Positions 5,759 through 32,391 of a DNA stretch of 34,328 nt are shown here, one piece after another. The position numbers and the translations under genes are program-made. The notes under the pieces are model-generated. The model was not told the DNA's origin and ran no database searches. It saw nothing but the letters and a program-made list of their open reading frames with translations. Source of the stretch: a virus; IMG/VR virus record IMGVR_UViG_3300046474_000385, positions 1 to 34,328 of that record, one strand, 5' to 3'. Position 1 is the first letter of the stretch; every line of letters starts with the position of its first letter.

Positions 5759-6719
5759 TTGGTTCAAGCTGTGCAGAAAGCGTTGATGCAGTTCCGGCGT
5801 TAGCTGTAAATGCAGCAGCATTTCCAGGCGGCGGGCTCGCACCATGAACGTGTGTCGCGATTTCGGTATTCATTTGCTCAAGCAACTCGAGCATTTCGCA
5901 TGCGATTCTAAAAATGTTGACACCTTCAGAACCTACCCAGCTTTTCGGCGCTTGCATCCGTTGACTCACCCCGGCCATGCTGAGGCGCAAGCCTTCAATC
6001 CGTTCCCGCATATCGCCGCCTACCGTGGTGTTGTGCTTCTGACCCACCACTACGTTCAAATCACGACCGGTCGCTTGGTGCAGGTCATCGACCGCCGCCA
6101 GACTTGCAGACCCACCGGACAGCAACTTGAGCGCGCCCAGCGCCTCAATCTTCTTGATGCCGCCCACTGACTCGGTCGAATGGTCGTCGACTATCCTGGT
6201 GTGGGTCTGGAAACTCTCGGTGTTGTCCAGGGCTTCGACCTCGCGCTCGATCGCCTTGTCCTGGATCTTCCCATCGGTCTGGCGCAGCCAGTTGCCATCG
6301 GCATCAACGCGCTGCTGGCAGGCTTCGCTGTGCTGCCACACCTGGTCGCCCTTCGGCACCCGGGGCAGGCTCAGACCGTGCGGCAGGATCTGCGTGATAA
6401 ACGGCTTGTGTGGCAGGCCGTAGGCGAAGCTGATCACGACGGTGGTGCCCTCCTCCGGAAAGCCAAACATCCCCGCTTCTTGTCCGCCCATCGGCGCCGG
6501 CAATGGCAGGCCTTCGAGGATCGGCAGATCCGGATCAGGCTCGCCATCAGCCAGCAGCACCTCGACGTCGACGCCAAAGCGCGGCCGGAAGTCGTCACAC
6601 AGCTCGGGCGCCGCCGGCGCATCCGGTACCGCAACCACGCGGCCAAAGCGCGGCAGGTGGTAACCGCCGCTCAATTCGGGAAATTGGCGCGCTACGCTGC
6701 GCTTTATTGCGTCGTCCAT
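5748..6719 (-). CDS. Baseplate spike / gpV-like assembly protein
   Basis: 323 aa from ATG 6719 (MDDAIKRSVARQFPEL); the longer open frame upstream is out of context because it runs through the neighbouring gene. An OB-fold-like N-terminal half (GRVVAVPD..., LPILEGLPLPAPMGG) is followed by GTTVVISFAYGLPHKPFITQILPHG, typical of phage baseplate V / Mu gp45-type proteins that form the central membrane-piercing spike. The C-terminal half is rich in short repeats and ends in a helix (ACEMLELLEQMNTEIATHVHG). The start overlaps the end of the hub gene by 16 bp. It is the last gene of the late operon and ends inside the convergent DUF4238 gene. Confidence 0.7.
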   Translation of the reverse strand: MDDAIKRSVARQFPELSGGYHLPRFGRVVAVPDAPAAPELCDDFRPRFGVDVEVLLADGEPDPDLPILEGLPLPAPMGGQEAGMFGFPEEGTTVVISFAYGLPHKPFITQILPHGLSLPRVPKGDQVWQHSEACQQRVDADGNWLRQTDGKIQDKAIEREVEALDNTESFQTHTRIVDDHSTESVGGIKKIEALGALKLLSGGSASLAAVDDLHQATGRDLNVVVGQKHNTTVGGDMRERIEGLRLSMAGVSQRMQAPKSWVGSEGVNIFRIACEMLELLEQMNTEIATHVHGASPPPGNAAAFTANAGTASTLSAQLEPITL

Positions 6720-7396
6720 TTGATCGCCATTTGGTTGCCGGCAAGCGTCACACTGGTGATCCGTTCGCCCTGGTTGATGGTTGCGCCTGGTCGAAGCCCC
6801 GGAAGGGGCGCGATCATCGCGCTTTGATTGCCCTGGTAGCCGTCGAACAGTTCGACCGGCAGCTGCAGCGCAGCGCGGGTACCGAAAAAGCTGTCGGCCC
6901 AACTGCCCACAAACACTTCGCCGTCGCCCTGCTGCTGCCAGATGAAGTCGGGGATGTTGAAGACGTTGGCCAGACTGTCCATCGCCAAATAGCCCGCCGC
7001 CAGGCTATAGAAATACGGTGCTTTGACCTTGGCATAAGCCTTGTCGGGAACCCGAAAGCCCAGCCCGGTTTTCTCGCTGATCTCGGCCAGCACCGCCTGC
7101 AGGTCGACGTGACGCAGGTTCAGCGGCAACGGGTTGGCCAGGATCGAGGACAACTCGCGGCAAGCCACCATCTGCTGGGTGCTGTTGGCGGCGGTCGACC
7201 GTTCGACGTAGCCAAGGAAGTGACGCTGCAGCGTGCGCTCGTTGTAGCCGATATCCAGCGTCACCAGACCTTTCAACGATTCGCCGGCCTGCACCGTGAA
7301 CGTCGCACGGCCAGGGCTCTTGATGTCCAGACGCACTTCGTCCTTGATCAGCGGGTAGACCTGGCCGGCGATCGTCAAAACCTTATGCAGTTTCAT
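6704..7396 (-). CDS. Baseplate hub / gpD-like tail protein
   Basis: 230 aa. It begins MKLHKVLTIAGQVYPLIKDEVRLDIKSPGRATFTVQ, has GYVERSTAANSTQQMVACRELSS-type strands and FRVPDKAYAKVKAPYFYSLA, the pattern of gp27/gpD-like hub proteins that adapt the tail tube to the spike. It is shorter than P2 gpD (about 390 aa), so the hub function may be shared with the next proteins. The ATG overlaps the preceding gene's stop (ATGA) and its own end overlaps the spike gene, so translation is coupled through the cluster. Confidence 0.55.
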   Translation of the reverse strand: MKLHKVLTIAGQVYPLIKDEVRLDIKSPGRATFTVQAGESLKGLVTLDIGYNERTLQRHFLGYVERSTAANSTQQMVACRELSSILANPLPLNLRHVDLQAVLAEISEKTGLGFRVPDKAYAKVKAPYFYSLAAGYLAMDSLANVFNIPDFIWQQQGDGEVFVGSWADSFFGTRAALQLPVELFDGYQGNQSAMIAPLPGLRPGATINQGERITSVTLAGNQMAIKWTTQ

Positions 7397-26840: not shown

Positions 26841-27746
26841 CTAGGTGTCTTTCTTGACCTGGATGCTGCGCATCAGGCGCGCCAGAGATTCGTCCACGCC
26901 ACCAGGCCTACTGTCGGGTGTCTGGGAAGCCCTAACACGACCGGGTGAATTGACCTGCTCTGGCATCTCCCCTTGGCTGTGAGCCACTTTGCGTGCCTCA
27001 CTACGTTCCCAGTTGGTACGTGACGTCTCGCGCCGTAAGGCTTCCAGAGACGCCTTCTCCTGACGCGCTAGGCGAAGCCCGCTGATGTCACGCAGCTCCT
27101 TTTCACGCTTCTTCAGTGCGGCCTTTTTCGCCCGATGCCAGAGGTACCGTACACCGAGGTCAGCAAAGAACTTTTCAGTGAATCGCACCAGGACACGAGT
27201 TCGCACCAGATTAAGTCCAGCTTCGTCCTTTTCATCCAAGCGAATTTTCTCCACGCGCCGGTAAACATAGTCGGCCAGTTCCATGCTGTGCAGCAGGCGA
27301 TTGAAGGACGCAGCAGAGACCCCGCTATCCTCTGCGACACCGCACTGGGTGTTGAGGAAAAACTGCCCCCGCTCGACGTCGAGCCACCCCATAACGCCTG
27401 TCGCCAGATCTAGGCGTACAAGCATCTGCTCGGCAACCTTAGCCAGCGCATCGAATTTCTCAGAGCGGGTACGGCGGCCACCATGAATGGTGTCCAGATC
27501 ACGTAGATACATACCGCGCAGGTCGCCGATTTGGCTCAGGCGCTTGAACGCCATCCGCAGAAGGGGGTTTTTGAGCTGCTGGCCAGTCAACCGGCGAGGA
27601 GCGGAATACCGGGGTGCGCGAGCAGGCGCTCGCAGAGCCGCGTGGGGATCTTTCTTGTCGCGATGCACAGCAGTAGGTCGGCCCTTTCTGGGGCCGGCCT
27701 TGCGGTCGCTCGTTCGCGATTTGATGTCCTTATCCGGCTGAGTCAC
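26841..27746 (-). CDS. RepA-like (IncFII-type) plasmid replication initiator
   Basis: 301 aa from GTG 27746, which overlaps the upstream stop as GTGA. A basic N-terminal 60 residues precede LTGQQLKNPLLRMAFKRLSQ, GGRRTRSEKFDALAKVAEQM, LNTQCGVAEDSGVSAASFNRLL (winged-helix-like), VRTRVLVRFTEKFFADLGVRYLWHRAKKAALKKREKELRDI. This resembles RepA initiators of IncFII-related Pseudomonas plasmids (RepA_IncFII family). It would bind an origin and load host helicase, not nick DNA like P2 gpA. No copA-like antisense RNA region is possible upstream, because the gene is fused to the early operon by overlap. The family call is from memory of the pattern; a generic phage initiator is the alternative. Confidence 0.6.
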   Translation of the reverse strand: MTQPDKDIKSRTSDRKAGPRKGRPTAVHRDKKDPHAALRAPARAPRYSAPRRLTGQQLKNPLLRMAFKRLSQIGDLRGMYLRDLDTIHGGRRTRSEKFDALAKVAEQMLVRLDLATGVMGWLDVERGQFFLNTQCGVAEDSGVSAASFNRLLHSMELADYVYRRVEKIRLDEKDEAGLNLVRTRVLVRFTEKFFADLGVRYLWHRAKKAALKKREKELRDISGLRLARQEKASLEALRRETSRTNWERSEARKVAHSQGEMPEQVNSPGRVRASQTPDSRPGGVDESLARLMRSIQVKKDT

Positions 27747-28375
27747 AGGCGGGTATTCACCTGTTGCGGGATAGGTTTCTGGTGCTGCTCGAGCAGCACG
27801 TCTTCGGCACGCGAGCGAAGCTCACAGCACCGCGCTTCGACTGACCGGAGCCTATCGACAAAGCTAGGTAGCTTGTCGATGTCTTGGAGGTCGATATGAC
27901 CGTCTGCAAGGATCTCGCTGCCCAAAGCTACTGTATCGCCCAGCCTGGCCACGAGCAGGCCAAACGCACACAGCGGATTACCGTCACCTTCCTGCTCGCG
28001 TGCGCCAGTCAGACCGTGACGACTGGCAAGCTCATTGATGCAATCGTCTTTGAATTCGCCGTCAAGAGCTTCTACCCAAGCCTCTTCAAGCCAGCACGGC
28101 AAATCTACCTCACCGTTAAGCCAGCGGCCAACGCGACGCAGCCAGGCCCCTGATGCTTTCAGAAACACCGGCGCGTCGTTGCCCTTGGCAAGCTCATCGA
28201 AATCGGGCACGTCCTTACTAGCAGCCTTGTCTGGAACGATGCGATGCAGGTTACTGCTCAGTAACTGGGCAAAGTCGTCCTGGCTGAAACCGGTGCGCGC
28301 GATCATCTCAACGGCATGAGCAATAAGTACTTGATCACGGGAAATGGACTGCTGTCCGTGTGTGGACGTGGTCAA
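27743..28375 (-). CDS. Early-operon protein, unknown function
   Basis: 210 aa. The reading frame starts at TTG 28375, which overlaps the upstream stop as TTGA and has only a weak Shine-Dalgarno. A later ATG (AHAVEMIARTG, in frame) is a second choice. It is acidic and helical, with FSQDDFAQLL and GRWLNGEVDLPCWLEEAWVEAL patterns but no known domain. It lies between the Cro-like gene and RepA in a coupled operon, so a role in replication or the switch is likely, but is not shown by the sequence. Confidence 0.6.
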   Translation of the reverse strand: MTTSTHGQQSISRDQVLIAHAVEMIARTGFSQDDFAQLLSSNLHRIVPDKAASKDVPDFDELAKGNDAPVFLKASGAWLRRVGRWLNGEVDLPCWLEEAWVEALDGEFKDDCINELASRHGLTGAREQEGDGNPLCAFGLLVARLGDTVALGSEILADGHIDLQDIDKLPSFVDRLRSVEARCCELRSRAEDVLLEQHQKPIPQQVNTRL

Positions 28376-28632
28376 GGCTGCTTACCGCATTTAGGCTGCC
28401 CCAACGCTTTTTCGTGGCCGGACTTAAAGCCATCGGGCGACGCCGAGTGTTCCTGGCAAGGAAACGGGCGGGTCTCCCGGGCTGCGCAAGTACCGTCGTC
28501 ACCGATCGTTACGATGATGTTTCGCTGAGCTCTTAGAGCTTTCGCTATCGACGCCGGTTTCACACCGAGCGCACGCGCTACCGGCGCCTGACCCATCCGT
28601 TGCACTAAATCACTAAGGGACATCTCTTCCAT
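28372..28632 (-). CDS. Cro-like repressor
   Basis: 86 aa from ATG 28632, with AGGTG six nt upstream; a GTG at 28641 is an unlikely alternative. The first 40 residues (MSLSDLVQRMGQAPVARALGVKPASIAKALRAQR) form a Cro/YdaS-like HTH, then NIIVTIGDDGTCAARETRPFP, the dimerisation strand typical of Cro. A 25-residue Lys/Gly-rich C-terminus is extra. It faces the S24 repressor gene across a 107-bp operator region and is the first gene of the early operon Cro-like, 210 aa, RepA. Confidence 0.85.
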   Translation of the reverse strand: MEEMSLSDLVQRMGQAPVARALGVKPASIAKALRAQRNIIVTIGDDGTCAARETRPFPCQEHSASPDGFKSGHEKALGQPKCGKQP

Positions 28633-28662
28633 GTCATACACCTAAGATTGATGAATGACCGG

Positions 28663-28725
28663 AAGATTAACCGCTAACATATTTTTTATCAATGCCTGCG
28701 GCTAATCTTATGTGTTAGCCAGCGG
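28663..28725. promoter_or_regulatory. Operator region of the lysogeny switch
   Basis: Repeated half-sites of the form GCGGYTAAY: GATTAACCGC (28665-28674, complement), GCGGCTAATC (28698-28707) and GTTAGCCAGC (28714-28723, complement variant). GGCTAA-N9-TTAGCC (28700-28720) makes a palindromic pair. They overlap both early promoters and are the likely targets of the S24 and Cro-like repressors. Confidence 0.65.
28664..28692 (-). promoter_or_regulatory. Early rightward-type (PR-like) promoter of the Cro-like/RepA operon
   Basis: On the minus strand TTGATA (complement of 28687-28692), 17 nt, TAATCT (complement of 28664-28669). The -10 lies inside the first operator half-site, so repressor binding should block it. 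Confidence 0.7.
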
Positions 28726-28727
28726 CT

Positions 28728-28733
28728 TATACT
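28728..28733 (+). promoter_or_regulatory. -10 element of the repressor promoter (PRM-like)
   Basis: TATACT, six nt before the ATG at 28740. The -35 window (28705-28710) is poor, as in lambda PRM, which needs activation. Transcription would begin at or next to the ATG, giving a leaderless message. Confidence 0.55.
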
Positions 28734-28739
28734 TCGACA

Positions 28740-29459
28740 ATGACTAAGAAAAAGCCCATCGCCCCTGCCCTATTTGCGGAATGCCAAGCAGCCCACGAGC
28801 TCTATCTTTCTAAGAAGAACGCTCTCAAGCTGAATCAACGGAAGATTGCCGATGCCGCAGGCATAACACCGGTTTCGGTGAACCATTATTTGAAGGGTAT
28901 AAATGCGCTCAATGCCCGCTTTGCTTCGGTGCTGGCGAAGCTGCTAAATGAGCCGGTCGAGAGCTTCAGTCCACGCCTTGCTGCCGAAATCGAGGGGATG
29001 GCGGCTACAAGTGGTCATTCCAACATTTCTCCAATGCTGCAACCTCACCGAGAGGCCCGGGAATATCCATTGATCTCATGGGTTGCCGCCGGCGAGCAGA
29101 TTGAATCTTCCGTCTGCTATCCGACCGGAATTGCAGACGATTGGCTGTCGTCTACGGAGAACGCAGGGCCACGTGGGTATTGGCTCAAGGTCAAGGGAAA
29201 GTCGATGACATCGGACACCCCGCCTAGCTTCCCGGAAGGCACTCCGATATTGATTCGCCCTGAAGGCTTTGACCTCATCAGCGGCAAGTTCTACATCGCC
29301 CGCCACACCGTGAGCGGCGAAACCACCTTCAAGCAATACAATCTAGATGCTGGGGTAGGCTACTTGGTGCCACTCAATCCAGAGTACAAGGCGGTAGCTC
29401 TGGACGGTACTTGGGAAATTATCGGCCGTGCGATCGATGCGAAAATCACCGGCATGTAA
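28740..29459 (+). CDS. CI-type XRE/S24 cleavable phage repressor
   Basis: 239 aa. N-terminal HTH (KLNQRKIADAAGITPVSVNHYLKGINAL, about residues 30-57). The C-terminal LexA/CI autoprotease domain has a cleavage site Ala117-Gly118 in WVAAGEQ, nucleophile Ser155 in VKGKSMTSD and Lys198 in GETTFKQY. It should hold lysogeny by blocking the early promoter and be inactivated by RecA in SOS. No Shine-Dalgarno precedes the ATG. The gene is divergent from the Cro-like gene and converges on the 97-aa gene 53 bp after its end. Confidence 0.95.
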   Translation: MTKKKPIAPALFAECQAAHELYLSKKNALKLNQRKIADAAGITPVSVNHYLKGINALNARFASVLAKLLNEPVESFSPRLAAEIEGMAATSGHSNISPMLQPHREAREYPLISWVAAGEQIESSVCYPTGIADDWLSSTENAGPRGYWLKVKGKSMTSDTPPSFPEGTPILIRPEGFDLISGKFYIARHTVSGETTFKQYNLDAGVGYLVPLNPEYKAVALDGTWEIIGRAIDAKITGM

Positions 29460-29512
29460 CGTCGTTGATAACCCACCGGCGTGCCTTAAAGCATTCCGAT
29501 CAGCTTCGCAGC

Positions 29513-29806
29513 TCATCCTCTAGCCTTGCGTGGACATAACTTGCCTGCATCGCCTTGAGCTGATCCAGGCGGGGCACTGTGCACCACGATATGACCTTGG
29601 CCAATTTTGAAGTTCTTCATTACAGCGATGCACACGTTCCACGCCTCGCGTGCAACAGCATCGCCGGTTTCGACCACATTGCCCTGGTCATCGATAATCG
29701 CTAGACGTGCAGGACGCCCGTCGGCTGTGCTGAATTGATAACCGCTGCTGACATTGGCACTGATACGGCCAAGCTCCAGCGTGCCTGTCTTGGGGATCCC
29801 GATCAT
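29513..29806 (-). CDS. Small early protein, unknown function
   Basis: 97 aa, not recognised. A compact beta-rich first part (MIGIPKTGTLELGRISANVSSGYQF, ARLAIIDDQGNVVETGDAVAREAWNVCIAVMKNF) ends in a 20-residue basic, disordered-looking tail. ATG 29806 overlaps the upstream stop as ATGA, so it is translated with the 168-aa gene and under the same repressed promoter. Expression is expected on induction. Confidence 0.6.
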   Translation of the reverse strand: MIGIPKTGTLELGRISANVSSGYQFSTADGRPARLAIIDDQGNVVETGDAVAREAWNVCIAVMKNFKIGQGHIVVHSAPPGSAQGDAGKLCPRKARG

Positions 29807-30309
29807 GGTCTTACCCCTACTTCAATACCTACAGAGCACTTGTTCACGATCAAAGCGATCGTACTGGCGTGGAGATCACGGCGACTTTGGGCTGTGTGTA
29901 TCGCGCTCCAGTTTTCTTTTGCAATTGCGGCATCGAGTTCCGCGTTTGCACTCCGATACCCCTCAATACTTTGACTGAACAGTCGTTTCGTATTTGGCTC
30001 CAGGATGGAAATGGTCAACTGCCCATCGGCGTCTGGAGTGATTCTCGGATCGTTGCAAAGAGCAAGCTCCTCAAGAAGGCGCGCAATTCGTTCGGCAACG
30101 TGATCAGTTTTCGGGATGGTCAAACTGTTTACAGTGCTACCCAGTCTGACCTGTACAGATACATCTTCTAAGCCCTGCTCAATGGCAACAATGGCCGTCG
30201 CGCAGCAGCGTCCGTCTTCTGCAAAAAAATGGTGCGAAAAGGTGCCGTTCTGAGTGACCTGGTCTGATAACTGAGCGCGCGCATGCGGCGAAAGGCAAAG
30301 GGCGTACAT
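29803..30309 (-). CDS. Early protein, unknown function
   Basis: 168 aa from ATG 30309, which has GGAGG 9 nt upstream; the upstream continuation of the frame has no ribosome site. Begins MYALCLSPHARAQLSDQVTQ. It contains FAEDGRCCATAIVAIEQGLEDVSVQVRLGS and a helical C-terminus. No domain is recognised. First gene of a two-gene operon driven by the repressor-controlled promoter at 30369-30397. It is between the switch and the integrase, where early anti-host or immunity genes often lie. Confidence 0.65.
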   Translation of the reverse strand: MYALCLSPHARAQLSDQVTQNGTFSHHFFAEDGRCCATAIVAIEQGLEDVSVQVRLGSTVNSLTIPKTDHVAERIARLLEELALCNDPRITPDADGQLTISILEPNTKRLFSQSIEGYRSANAELDAAIAKENWSAIHTAQSRRDLHASTIALIVNKCSVGIEVGVRP

Positions 30310-30368
30310 CGTGTAAACCTCCAAAGCGATCAGGGCACCGCAACGCAATACCCTGAACTGATGGAGAC

Positions 30369-30397
30369 AAATTAGCCTCAGGCTAATTTTATGTCAA
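30369..30397 (-). promoter_or_regulatory. Second early promoter (PL-like) with repressor palindrome
   Basis: On the minus strand TTGACA (complement of 30392-30397), 17 nt, TAATTT (complement of 30369-30374): near-consensus. A perfect palindrome (AAATTAGCCT, C, then its complement; 30369-30389) fills spacer and -10. GGCTAAT-Y-TTATGT is shared with the switch region (28700-28713) and a half-site copy GTTAGCCGC lies at 30425-30433, so the same repressor should silence it. Confidence 0.8.
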
Positions 30398-30440
30398 ACA
30401 CCTGCGGCATATTTTTTGTCTTTTGTTAGCCGCTGGATAA

Positions 30441-30695
30441 TCAGAAGGGGTGATGATTGGTCCAGCTCAATTGCGCAATCCCGTCGCCTAGGTGCTTCAA
30501 GCGCACGCCTTCCTCGTTATTCAATTCCTCTAGAAGTCGATCCCAGTCAGCGGAGCGCTCGCCGGATAATCGCCGTATTAACGTTCGCCGCAGGACTTGG
30601 GCGGAGGCACTGTTGACCTGTCGGTAAATACGGCATGCAAGTTGGTCGAATGGGGTCGACGGCTGCATTGGAAAAACGCGGTTTTGCTGAAGCAC
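30441..30695 (-). CDS. SOS-controlled DUF1654 family protein
   Basis: 84 aa from GTG 30695 (AGGA 7 nt upstream; an in-frame ATG at 30668 has no ribosome site). STPFDQLACRIYRQVNSA, then AQVLRRTLIRRL, SADWDRLLEEL and LGDGIAQLSWT follow the pattern of DUF1654, a family mainly found in Pseudomonas and its phages, function unknown. A LexA box lies 19 nt upstream. It is on the integrase strand, 67 bp after the integrase stop, so it may also be reached by read-through. Confidence 0.82.
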   Translation of the reverse strand: MLQQNRVFPMQPSTPFDQLACRIYRQVNSASAQVLRRTLIRRLSGERSADWDRLLEELNNEEGVRLKHLGDGIAQLSWTNHHPF

Positions 30696-30713
30696 AAAAG
30701 CATCCTGCTACTG

Positions 30714-30729
30714 CTGTATATCCAGACAG
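30714..30729 (-). promoter_or_regulatory. LexA (SOS) box
   Basis: CTGT-N8-ACAG, perfect. On the minus strand it overlaps a TATACT -10-like hexamer, and 20 of 22 bases (TATACTGT to ATACAGCA) equal the box region at 2563-2584. Confidence 0.87.
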
Positions 30730-30762
30730 TATATAGTAAATGTAGCTTTGCTAATATTTGGC

Positions 30763-32391
30763 CTAATCCCAGTCCTCACTCGCCACCCAATCGCCTGTTT
30801 TCCGATGGATCCGAAGCAGACGGTGCTGTCCCGTACGCGAGAGAAGCTGCACATCAATGAACTGACCTTCGCGGTCGGTTGCGTCCACACCCCGCATGAA
30901 AATGACAATTCGACTGAATGTGTCCATGACCAACTGCCTGACGCTTTCTCTTGCCCCGTAATCTCCCGCTTCCACTTGGACAGACAGATCCGCCCATCGC
31001 TCTGCCTGGGCTGGTTGAGCAGCCCCTGCGGATATTGAGCTCACCTCATACTCCAGTGTTGAAACGCTTTGTTCAGCATCTCTAAGTTGTGATTCCAACT
31101 CCCTTGCCTTACGGACAAACGCCAGAGGGGCGGCGCCACTCTCATCTGCTAAAAGCGCATCAGTTACCTTGCCTAACTGACCTGTGATCTTCGCAACAGC
31201 CGCCCTTGCATCCACAAGCTGACGATGGACAGCCTGGCCATCATCGCTTGGTTGCATAAGTCGCTGGAGGTTGAGCTGATCCGTGCAGAACTTGAGTAAC
31301 GCTTGCTCGATTGGGACAACGCTGCAGCTTCCACCGGCGGAGCACCCGCCGTTTTTACTGTAGGAAGTGCAGTGCAACCTGCGATTGCCGTCTGCAATAC
31401 TTCCATCCACACGCCTACGCTTCATTATGTTTTGCGCAACTAGCGCTGTACCGCAGTAGCCGCAGTAGGCCAATCCGACCCCGGTGATGATGCCTGGTAT
31501 CTCCCCCGCTCCTCGACGACGCAACCGTTGGGCAGCAAGGTGCTGCAGATCATTCCATTCTGCATCGGACAGTACACGCGGGTAGTACTCCTCCAACTCG
31601 TAATCCTCGCCCTCCAGACTCAACCGTTTGACACCCCGCAGCGCAGGCAACTTGATCGTCCGGTAGATCTGTAATCCGGAGATTCCTCCCTCAGTCAGTT
31701 GAAATCCCTCTTCATGCATGATGTTTGCAGCACGGCCGGCACCGAGTCCCAAACGATAAAGCTCAAGCGCCCGCTTTACTGCTGCGACACGCTCTGGGAT
31801 CAACTCCCATCCCCCATTGGTCAATCGCACCCACTGTGGGTCTTTACCGTTGCGGATCACCCCACGAAACGAACCGGATATCCAACCTTCACATTGACGA
31901 CGGATTGCGGCTTTGACTCGCTTGCTCTTCGTGTCGGACTCTTCATGCGCCCTGATCATCACCAGGAGCGAATACACCAGGTCCATAGGCTGAGCTTTCA
32001 AACCAGCCCTGTTGTACTCGCGGCCGTCGCTTGCGGTAACTACCGTGATACCCGCATTGATAATCTGAGCAAGCTGAGCCTGGGCTTGGATAGGTTCAGC
32101 TCGACTAAGACGATCCAGTCCCTCAACGATTAGAACAGAGCCATCGTTGATACGACCGTCCTCCACTGCCCGCAAAAATACCCCTAAAGCGCCTTGCTTC
32201 ACATGGCGTTGGTGATATGCGGAAAGGCCTTCGTCTCTCAGAGAAAGAGACTCATCTAAAATAAAACCGTTTGATTTAGCCCAGCGCTGAGCATATTGAA
32301 GTTGACGGTCAGCACTATTACCCAACGCTTGTTTTGGATCAGAAAATCGAAGATAGCTGTAGACCTTACGCCCCCCTAGTTGCGCATTCAT
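30763..32391 (-). CDS. Large serine integrase
   Basis: 542 aa. N-terminal resolvase domain with YLRFS at residues 13-17 (Arg15, nucleophile Ser17) and DGLSAYHQ, VEGLDRLSRA, REYNRAGL. The recombinase domain (residues about 180-280) is followed by a zinc ribbon (CGYCGTALV, LHCTSYSKNGGCSAGGSC) and a coiled coil (VRKARELESQLRDAEQSVSTLEYEV). It should recombine attP with the rimO attB across the TG core without host help; excision needs a directionality factor I could not identify. ATG 32391 overlaps the stop of the membrane-protein gene (TAATG), so it is translated with it. Most P2-type phages use tyrosine integrases. Confidence 0.95.
   Translation of the reverse strand: MNAQLGGRKVYSYLRFSDPKQALGNSADRQLQYAQRWAKSNGFILDESLSLRDEGLSAYHQRHVKQGALGVFLRAVEDGRINDGSVLIVEGLDRLSRAEPIQAQAQLAQIINAGITVVTASDGREYNRAGLKAQPMDLVYSLLVMIRAHEESDTKSKRVKAAIRRQCEGWISGSFRGVIRNGKDPQWVRLTNGGWELIPERVAAVKRALELYRLGLGAGRAANIMHEEGFQLTEGGISGLQIYRTIKLPALRGVKRLSLEGEDYELEEYYPRVLSDAEWNDLQHLAAQRLRRRGAGEIPGIITGVGLAYCGYCGTALVAQNIMKRRRVDGSIADGNRRLHCTSYSKNGGCSAGGSCSVVPIEQALLKFCTDQLNLQRLMQPSDDGQAVHRQLVDARAAVAKITGQLGKVTDALLADESGAAPLAFVRKARELESQLRDAEQSVSTLEYEVSSISAGAAQPAQAERWADLSVQVEAGDYGARESVRQLVMDTFSRIVIFMRGVDATDREGQFIDVQLLSRTGQHRLLRIHRKTGDWVASEDWD

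Follow-up and report, generated by a model that had tools for sequence, protein, structure and literature searches.

The window analyzed here is the IMG/VR virus record IMGVR_UViG_3300046474_000385 at its whole length of 34,328 bp, a Pseudomonas-type prophage with a lambda-like repressor. Its sequence makes it highly probable (about 0.88) that the cI locus is a lambda-type immunity system, in which CI bound to three operators in the cI-cro gap (OR1, OR2, and OR3) and, at a distance of 1.7 kb, to three further operators that precede a two-gene early operon (OL1, OL2, and OL3) controls the promoters PR and PL. One protein very probably silences both promoters, its sites changing in step with the repressor across relatives. 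The system amounts to a variation on the lambda OR/OL design and not to a new kind. Relatives were collected by CI and amount to 42 viral loci and 7 genome loci (individual loci are given as L numbers). The genes in question are as follows.

28740-29459, + strand, cI repressor, 239 aa, HTH_3 and Peptidase_S24
28372-28641, - strand, Cro (PF09048), divergent from cI, directly across the operator region
29803-30309, - strand, 168-aa protein, gene 1 of the PL-type operon, phrog_29828/15582
29513-29806, - strand, 97-aa protein, gene 2 of the PL-type operon, no assigned function, kept in relatives
30441-30695, - strand, DUF1654 protein (PF07867), upstream of OL/PL and codirectional with the operon

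The assignment to the lambda type draws on several features. CI combines an N-terminal helix-turn-helix (HTH) domain with a C-terminal S24 domain, and cro is divergent from it across the operator. Three OR operators follow one another in ~24-bp steps, and both sequence and covariation point to a second operator cluster of the same type over another promoter. CI and Cro are homologues of their lambda (NC_001416) counterparts, each with 38% identity (90 of 237 columns for CI and 24 of 64 for Cro). Syntenic relatives have the order cI, 97-aa gene, variable genes, 168-aa-type gene, OL, DUF1654, and integrase.

The Same Operator Recurs in Two Control Regions

The original prediction had proposed that one repressor serves two control regions through a shared 14-mer. 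The 14-mer is present as GGCTAATCTTATGT at positions 28700-28713 and as GGCTAATTTTATGT at positions 30381-30394, the sole exact matches to GGCTAATNTTATGT in the record, but we reject it as the operator itself. It consists of one operator half and of a TTATGT part that is not conserved in close relatives (L009-L014, whose CI is 99-100% identical, have GGCTAATCTTTTG or similar at this place), and in the second region TTATGT abuts and overlaps the complement of the PL -35 box. The palindrome that recurs is TTAGCC-N3-GGCTAA, which forms a 17-bp operator with its flanks. It is found in the window once perfect and twice with one mismatch, always within the two regions (0.005 perfect and 0.02 one-mismatch copies are expected by chance). 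Its relaxed form TTARCC-N3-GGYTWA yields 7 strand-matches with at most one mismatch, compared with 0.45 expected and a number reached in 0 of 100 shuffles; the matches cover four places, one of which lies outside both regions, at 28117. The perfect 21-bp palindrome noted earlier is confirmed at 30369-30389 (AAATTAGCCTCAGGCTAATTT), and no longer perfect palindrome exists in the window. The half-site GCGGYTAAY does recur around both regions, as had been stated, with all three copies in the 34 kb located there (28666-28674, - strand; 28698-28706, + strand; 30425-30433, - strand). This is a mild enrichment only (3 versus 0.95 expected, 10 of 100 shuffles reaching 3).

Such a mild enrichment could suggest that the shared sequences arose by chance or reflect the AT-rich base composition of intergenic DNA, as could the 14-mer, which occurs at the chance level when three mismatches are allowed (4 matches versus 4.14 in shuffles) and is rejected as the operator on this count as well. 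We consider this explanation almost certainly wrong, however, since in the correct register three near-perfect sites face ~0.025 expected (0 of 100 shuffles), since site positions are conserved, and since the covariation reported below contradicts it by permutation test.

The operators assigned to the two regions, and the promoters that they overlap, are the following.

28666-28682, OR1-type operator, core 28667-28681 TTAACCGCTAACATA, centre 28674; 66 bp before the cI ATG, within PR
28690-28706, OR2-type operator, core AATGCCTGCGGCTAA, centre 28698; 42 bp before the cI ATG, overlaps the PR -35 box
28714-28730, OR3-type operator, core TTAGCCAGCGGCTTA, centre 28722; 18 bp before the cI ATG, overlaps the likely PRM -10 box
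30371-30387, OL1-type operator, perfect palindrome ATTAGCCTCAGGCTAAT, centre 30379
30396-30412, weak OL2-type operator, core AACACCTGCGGCATA, centre 30404, at the PL -35 box; position kept in relatives
30425-30441, OL3-type operator, core TTAGCCGCTGGATAA, centre 30433; touches the DUF1654 stop codon
28664-28692, - strand, PR-like promoter for cro, TTGATA-N17-TAATCT, 8/12 to consensus
28728-28733, + strand, likely PRM -10 box TATACT, 7 bp before the cI ATG
30369-30397, - strand, PL-like promoter TTGACA-N17-TAATTT, directed towards cI

OR1, OR2, and OL2 are too degenerate to be recognised alone and are supported by spacing and conservation. Of the 18 loci that were scanned, 15 have their OR centres at exactly 66, 42, and 18 bp ahead of the cI ATG, 7 of these 15 being the window and its near-copies L009-L014. 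The same 15 loci place OL1 68-70 nucleotides from the codon at which the first operon gene starts. The remaining three, L019, L020, and L022, differ both in OR spacing and in OL1 distance, the latter partly because of a start coordinate that was set by alignment.

PR and PL are alike in layout (TTGAYA-N17-TAATYT), with the centre of O1 5 bp from the first base of the -10 box and O2 at the -35 box. PL had been described as near-consensus; the sequence TTGACA-N17-TAATTT is indeed present and its -35 box is perfect, but TAATTT scores only 3/6 and the promoter 9/12 in total, which makes the label generous. The -10 boxes of both promoters match TATAAT at positions 1, 2, and 6 only. OR2 appears to occupy the lambda activator position relative to PRM, and the cI mRNA made from PRM is probably leaderless, as in lambda.

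Both Control Regions Covary with the CI HTH Domain

We find that OR and OL resemble each other more within a phage than between re-paired phages. With 14 loci and three scores, 0 of 100,000 permutations did as well as the true pairing, whichever score was used. Ten cluster representatives gave 2, 0, and 0 of 100,000, and a 13-locus rerun gave 2 and 0 of 20,000. When OL was replaced by four coding stretches (beside OL, in cI, and in cro) as a control, the count rose to between 1,547 and 16,337 of 20,000. The near-copies L009-L014 and L052 were omitted from the 14-locus test, L026 from the 13-locus rerun and the controls, and L021 and L023 because their OL is beyond the available stretch; L027, L029-L050, and L054-L057 were unused (distant CI or no synteny), and L003-L008 are the same contigs as L009-L014.

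The strongest single evidence in these sequences is the replacement of the CI HTH domain in L025 and L026. Both retain the C-terminal domain of CI, and their N-terminal HTH domain is very different. The operator repeat is ATAGGAATACCC in L025 and AAACACA-N5-GTGGTT in L026, and in each locus it matches in both control regions. Among 21 loci of the lambda-like class, those with the recognition helix P-A-A-V-A (5 loci from 3 lineages) have three GGT-type and zero GGC-type half-site matches, and those with S-V-N or S-V-S (16/21) have at least two GGC-type half-sites, 7 of the 16 having one of the GGT type in addition. Because both regions covary with the HTH domain of CI, replacements included, and share operator and promoter-operator geometry, we infer that one repressor serves both, in agreement with the original prediction.

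The same data bear on a possible role of Cro. The second region could be mainly a site for Cro or for another regulator, or else the leftover of an old duplication, in either case without CI regulation in the lysogen. Cro proteins normally bind the sites of CI, as is established for lambda, and PR and PL look alike. Yet both regions have changed along with the CI HTH domain, in cases of substitution as well as of replacement, and a leftover region would not follow the changes of the other one, so that we regard this alternative as very improbable.

Several points weigh against control of both regions by CI. In the window, OR1, OR2, and OL2 have about 5, 3, and 6 mismatches of 12, respectively, and the spacing of OL3 is irregular, its distance varying among relatives. 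A consensus promoter scan listed neither PR nor PL; it requires at least 4/6 per hexamer, and TAATCT and TAATTT have 3/6. The scan returned two promoter-like matches elsewhere, which is below the shuffle mean. The loci share ancestry and their counts are therefore dependent, a concern that is eased by the 10 representatives and by the L025/L026 replacements, and operator windows and scores were picked after the sequences had been seen. Cro, and not CI alone, may bind the sites. Finally, sequence comparison establishes operator identity, geometry, and the parallel change of both regions and the CI HTH domain, and it is from these same comparisons that CI binding and promoter repression are deduced.

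Proposed Circuit and a PL Operon Directed towards cI

CI at OR1 and OR2 would shut PR and thus transcription from cro onward, and CI at OR2, beside PRM, would probably activate its own gene. At OL1 and OL2 the repressor would cover the -10 box and spacer and the -35 box of PL, shutting the 168-aa/97-aa operon, and CI may connect OR and OL by looping. Either RecA-stimulated cleavage of CI or infection of a repressor-free cell would open PR and PL. The CI segments AG, SMT, and TFK, which we take to be the cleavage and catalytic positions, align with lambda CI and would fit RecA-dependent self-cleavage. Repression of the PL operon in the lysogen and its activation at induction, as originally proposed, would follow from the one-repressor model.

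The description of the two genes as a PL-type operon holds for their control, which is PL-like with three operators per region, but not for their direction: unlike lambda PL, the promoter points towards cI. Where the available sequence includes both cI and the N part of the operon's first gene (21 loci, window and near-copies included), 20 loci have the operon between OL and cI and directed towards cI. L026 is the sole locus with PL pointing away from cI, and there a block comprising the LexA box, DUF1654, OL, and the first gene is inverted (6112-7060). A tyrosine-integrase-like gene, identified by reading the open reading frame (ORF) only, is located near this block.

A scan for intrinsic-type terminators detected no such site between the operon and the 3' end of cI on either strand, and folding of this gap yields hairpins that all lack a T run. 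Convergent transcription and antisense RNA to cI would thus be expected on derepression; transcription from PL would continue into the 3' end of cI, and a derepressed PL could oppose cI expression. We found no report of a convergent PL or of these operators in the parts of the open-access literature available to us, which is weak evidence of absence.

The 168-aa gene resembles a fusion between two genes that other phages carry separately. Its first ~100 residues match a 183-185-aa protein and the remainder matches a 72-86-aa protein; separate versions are found at L018 5044-5304 and 5279-5836 and at L051 6927-7484, and in L020 and L022 the site between the two parts is occupied by other genes. 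For the 97-aa and 168-aa proteins, Pfam and NCBIfam gave no match and PHROG no informative one. Short patterns detected no relatives of the 168-aa protein in genome contigs, and genome loci with its N or C part were recovered through the CI search. An AlphaFold model of a 185-aa full-length relative (mean predicted local distance difference test score (pLDDT) 81.8, predicted template modeling score 0.50) returned no Foldseek hit with E ≤0.001 in the PDB (best Z is 4.9, with a root mean square deviation (r.m.s.d.) of 3.0 comparing 69 aligned residues).

The PL leader contains a candidate RNA element.

30324-30361, - strand, RNA hairpin of 11 pairs in the PL leader, between start site and ribosome-binding site

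In 16 leaders, 91.9% of the cells are paired, compared with 86.3% in shuffles (reached in 1 of 500), and the covariation score is 0.270, compared with 0.187 (2 of 500), although related sequences can exceed such shuffles without structure. Pairs changed on both sides number 2, not above shuffles. A covariance model of the hairpin matched the PL leaders of 14 of 20 sources, 13 of which were in the alignment of the model itself, the 14th being the near-copy L014. Five of the matched leaders also gave an echo on the opposite strand, the leaders of L019, L025, and L026 gave no match, and a single further match was weak (L018 6086-6127, E 1.6). The hairpin could be a nut/put-like or translation-control element. 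With regard to a nutL/nutR pair, the available sequence of the 20 sources contains no convincing second copy, and no N family match was found among 10 genes scanned.

DUF1654 and Its LexA-type Box

The gene next to OL is preceded by a putative regulatory site of a second type.

30714-30729, LexA-type box CTGTATATCCAGACAG, before DUF1654, 13/16 to CTGTATATATATACAG

Boxes were matched to the LexA consensus. All 20 syntenic loci, counting the window and its near-copies, have a CTG-N10-CAG box before DUF1654 (L009-L019, L022, L024-L026, L028, and L051-L053), and L025 and L026 keep it despite their different CI operators. Seven of 17 matching records of named phages were examined, and 6 of the 7 DUF1654 loci have a box 30-33 bp before the start (L096, L098-L102), TC7 having none. 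In Pseudomonas and Azotobacter genomes, with a cut-off chosen by us (11/16, CTG and CAG required), the box is found at 35 of 35 DUF1654 loci and at 0 of 35 in each of two equal-length control stretches. These loci (L060-L065, L067-L095) come from sets of 6 and 30 with one shared, the larger set consisting of best-scoring matches only, and L063-L065 are prophages already among the relatives. DUF1654 occurs in 85 of 99 genomes of the genus to which the PB120 genome belongs. Judging from these boxes, DUF1654 is probably an SOS gene family. The accessible portions of the open-access literature contain no account of LexA control of a DUF1654 gene that we could find. The DUF1654 model (pLDDT 87.1) predicts a small α/β protein; it has no Foldseek hit with E ≤0.001, and its best match (Z 6.6, r.m.s.d. 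2.1, 60 aligned residues) is tied with Smr, S8, and CodY rows.

Since DUF1654 carries a LexA-type box, CI need not be the only regulator of the operon downstream. The operon might even be controlled mainly by the SOS response through LexA and be read from the DUF1654 promoter through OL, with CI at OL acting mainly as a roadblock or looping anchor. The box in every syntenic locus would agree with this, and so would the scan of 27600-30800, which detected no terminator-like site on the minus strand. Against it stand a promoter with a perfect -35 box inside OL, the operator over its -10 box and spacer, and the conservation of this layout. LexA control of DUF1654 is moreover compatible with CI control of PL, and we consider LexA as the main regulator very unlikely.

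A joint reading would put two keys at one place, host LexA on DUF1654 and phage CI on PL within OL. A damage-induced, LexA-controlled transcript would then cross OL and the PL operon into the 3' end of cI, DUF1654 would help to unseat or bypass CI, and the module of LexA box, DUF1654, OL, and PL would travel as a unit (inverted in L026), its operators re-tuned to the resident CI. Taken as a whole we hold this as tentative and rather unlikely.

A second LexA-type box, CTGTTTGTATATACAG, is located at 2567-2582 of the window (14/16 to the consensus), ~26 bp before an 83-aa ORF (2608-2859) that corresponds to phrog_6137. Phage YMC11/07/P54 (L099 4668-5315) is annotated with two adjacent, divergent DUF1654 genes.

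Comparison with Known Systems and Neighboring Genes

The annotated OR1, OR2, and OR3 centres of lambda lie 66, 42, and 19 bp from the cI ATG, a difference of the last position only from the window. Its operators are likewise 17 bp long with CC at the same half-site positions, its OL contains three operators at 2.3 kb from OR, and O1 lies over the -10 box and spacer. Unlike lambda, the window has the half-site TTAGCC, a PL operon placed in the OL-cI interval and read in the direction of cI, no gene downstream of cI on the same strand (rexAB in lambda), and a DUF1654 gene with its LexA-type box flanking OL.

In the Pseudomonas aeruginosa phages phi297, LESphi3, LPPA33, YMC11/07/P54, and D14S, DUF1654 is likewise found on the PL side, between the left operon and cI, and its start follows a LexA-type box at 30-33 bp; TC7 has the gene in this position too. 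By eye, phi297 shows repeated ATAAG-type half-sites there. The five P. aeruginosa phages differ from the window in the lambda-like direction of their left operon, which is read away from cI with DUF1654 divergent from it, and in having different operators and repressors. The LexA-controlled antirepressors of the Gifsy prophages (PMC3121763) are, as far as the available part of that source goes, also small prophage proteins behind a LexA-type box, and it yielded no link to DUF1654. DUF1654 differs from what is described there in that it also occurs outside these prophages and adjoins the immunity region, and the window CI retains its S24 protease domain.

Two further genes of the window complete the region.

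27743-28375, - strand, CII-like activator family (phrog_4834), downstream of cro
30763-32391, - strand, serine integrase

In some relatives a gene for a BRCT-domain protein directly follows cI on the cI strand (L017 4745-5383, L022 4748-5386, L051 5747-6385, L026 4559-5194, and L024 4743-5768, all + strand; assigned by Pfam in L017 and L024, by eye only in L051 and L026). It has a partial PADLOC PDC-S48 match in L017, L022, and L024, and at the position of lambda rexAB it is possibly a defence gene expressed in the lysogen. In the Azotobacter prophage L053 (5873-6892 and 7102-7641), Endonuclease I (PF04231) follows cI, and the cargo includes an ORF with weak SecB/PD-T4-9_C similarity. ORFs similar to Endonuclease I by eye also follow several chromosomal DUF1654 genes (e.g. 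L094 1722-2411).

Implications

Three features lift this locus above an ordinary lambda-type system: a series of naturally covarying relatives, a PL that converges on cI, and a neighboring gene preceded by a LexA-type box. The OR/OL logic would be extended to Pseudomonas and Azotobacter phages with a convergent PL. The relatives form a series of natural variants in which recognition residues and the operators of two regions have changed together, and which should be useful for studying repressor-operator evolution and for predicting mutual immunity among prophages. For the DUF1654 family a testable function emerges, namely that of an SOS gene retained by phages next to their left control region. 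Should the joint LexA and CI reading prove true, lysogens of differing CI specificity would share one SOS-driven induction accelerator.

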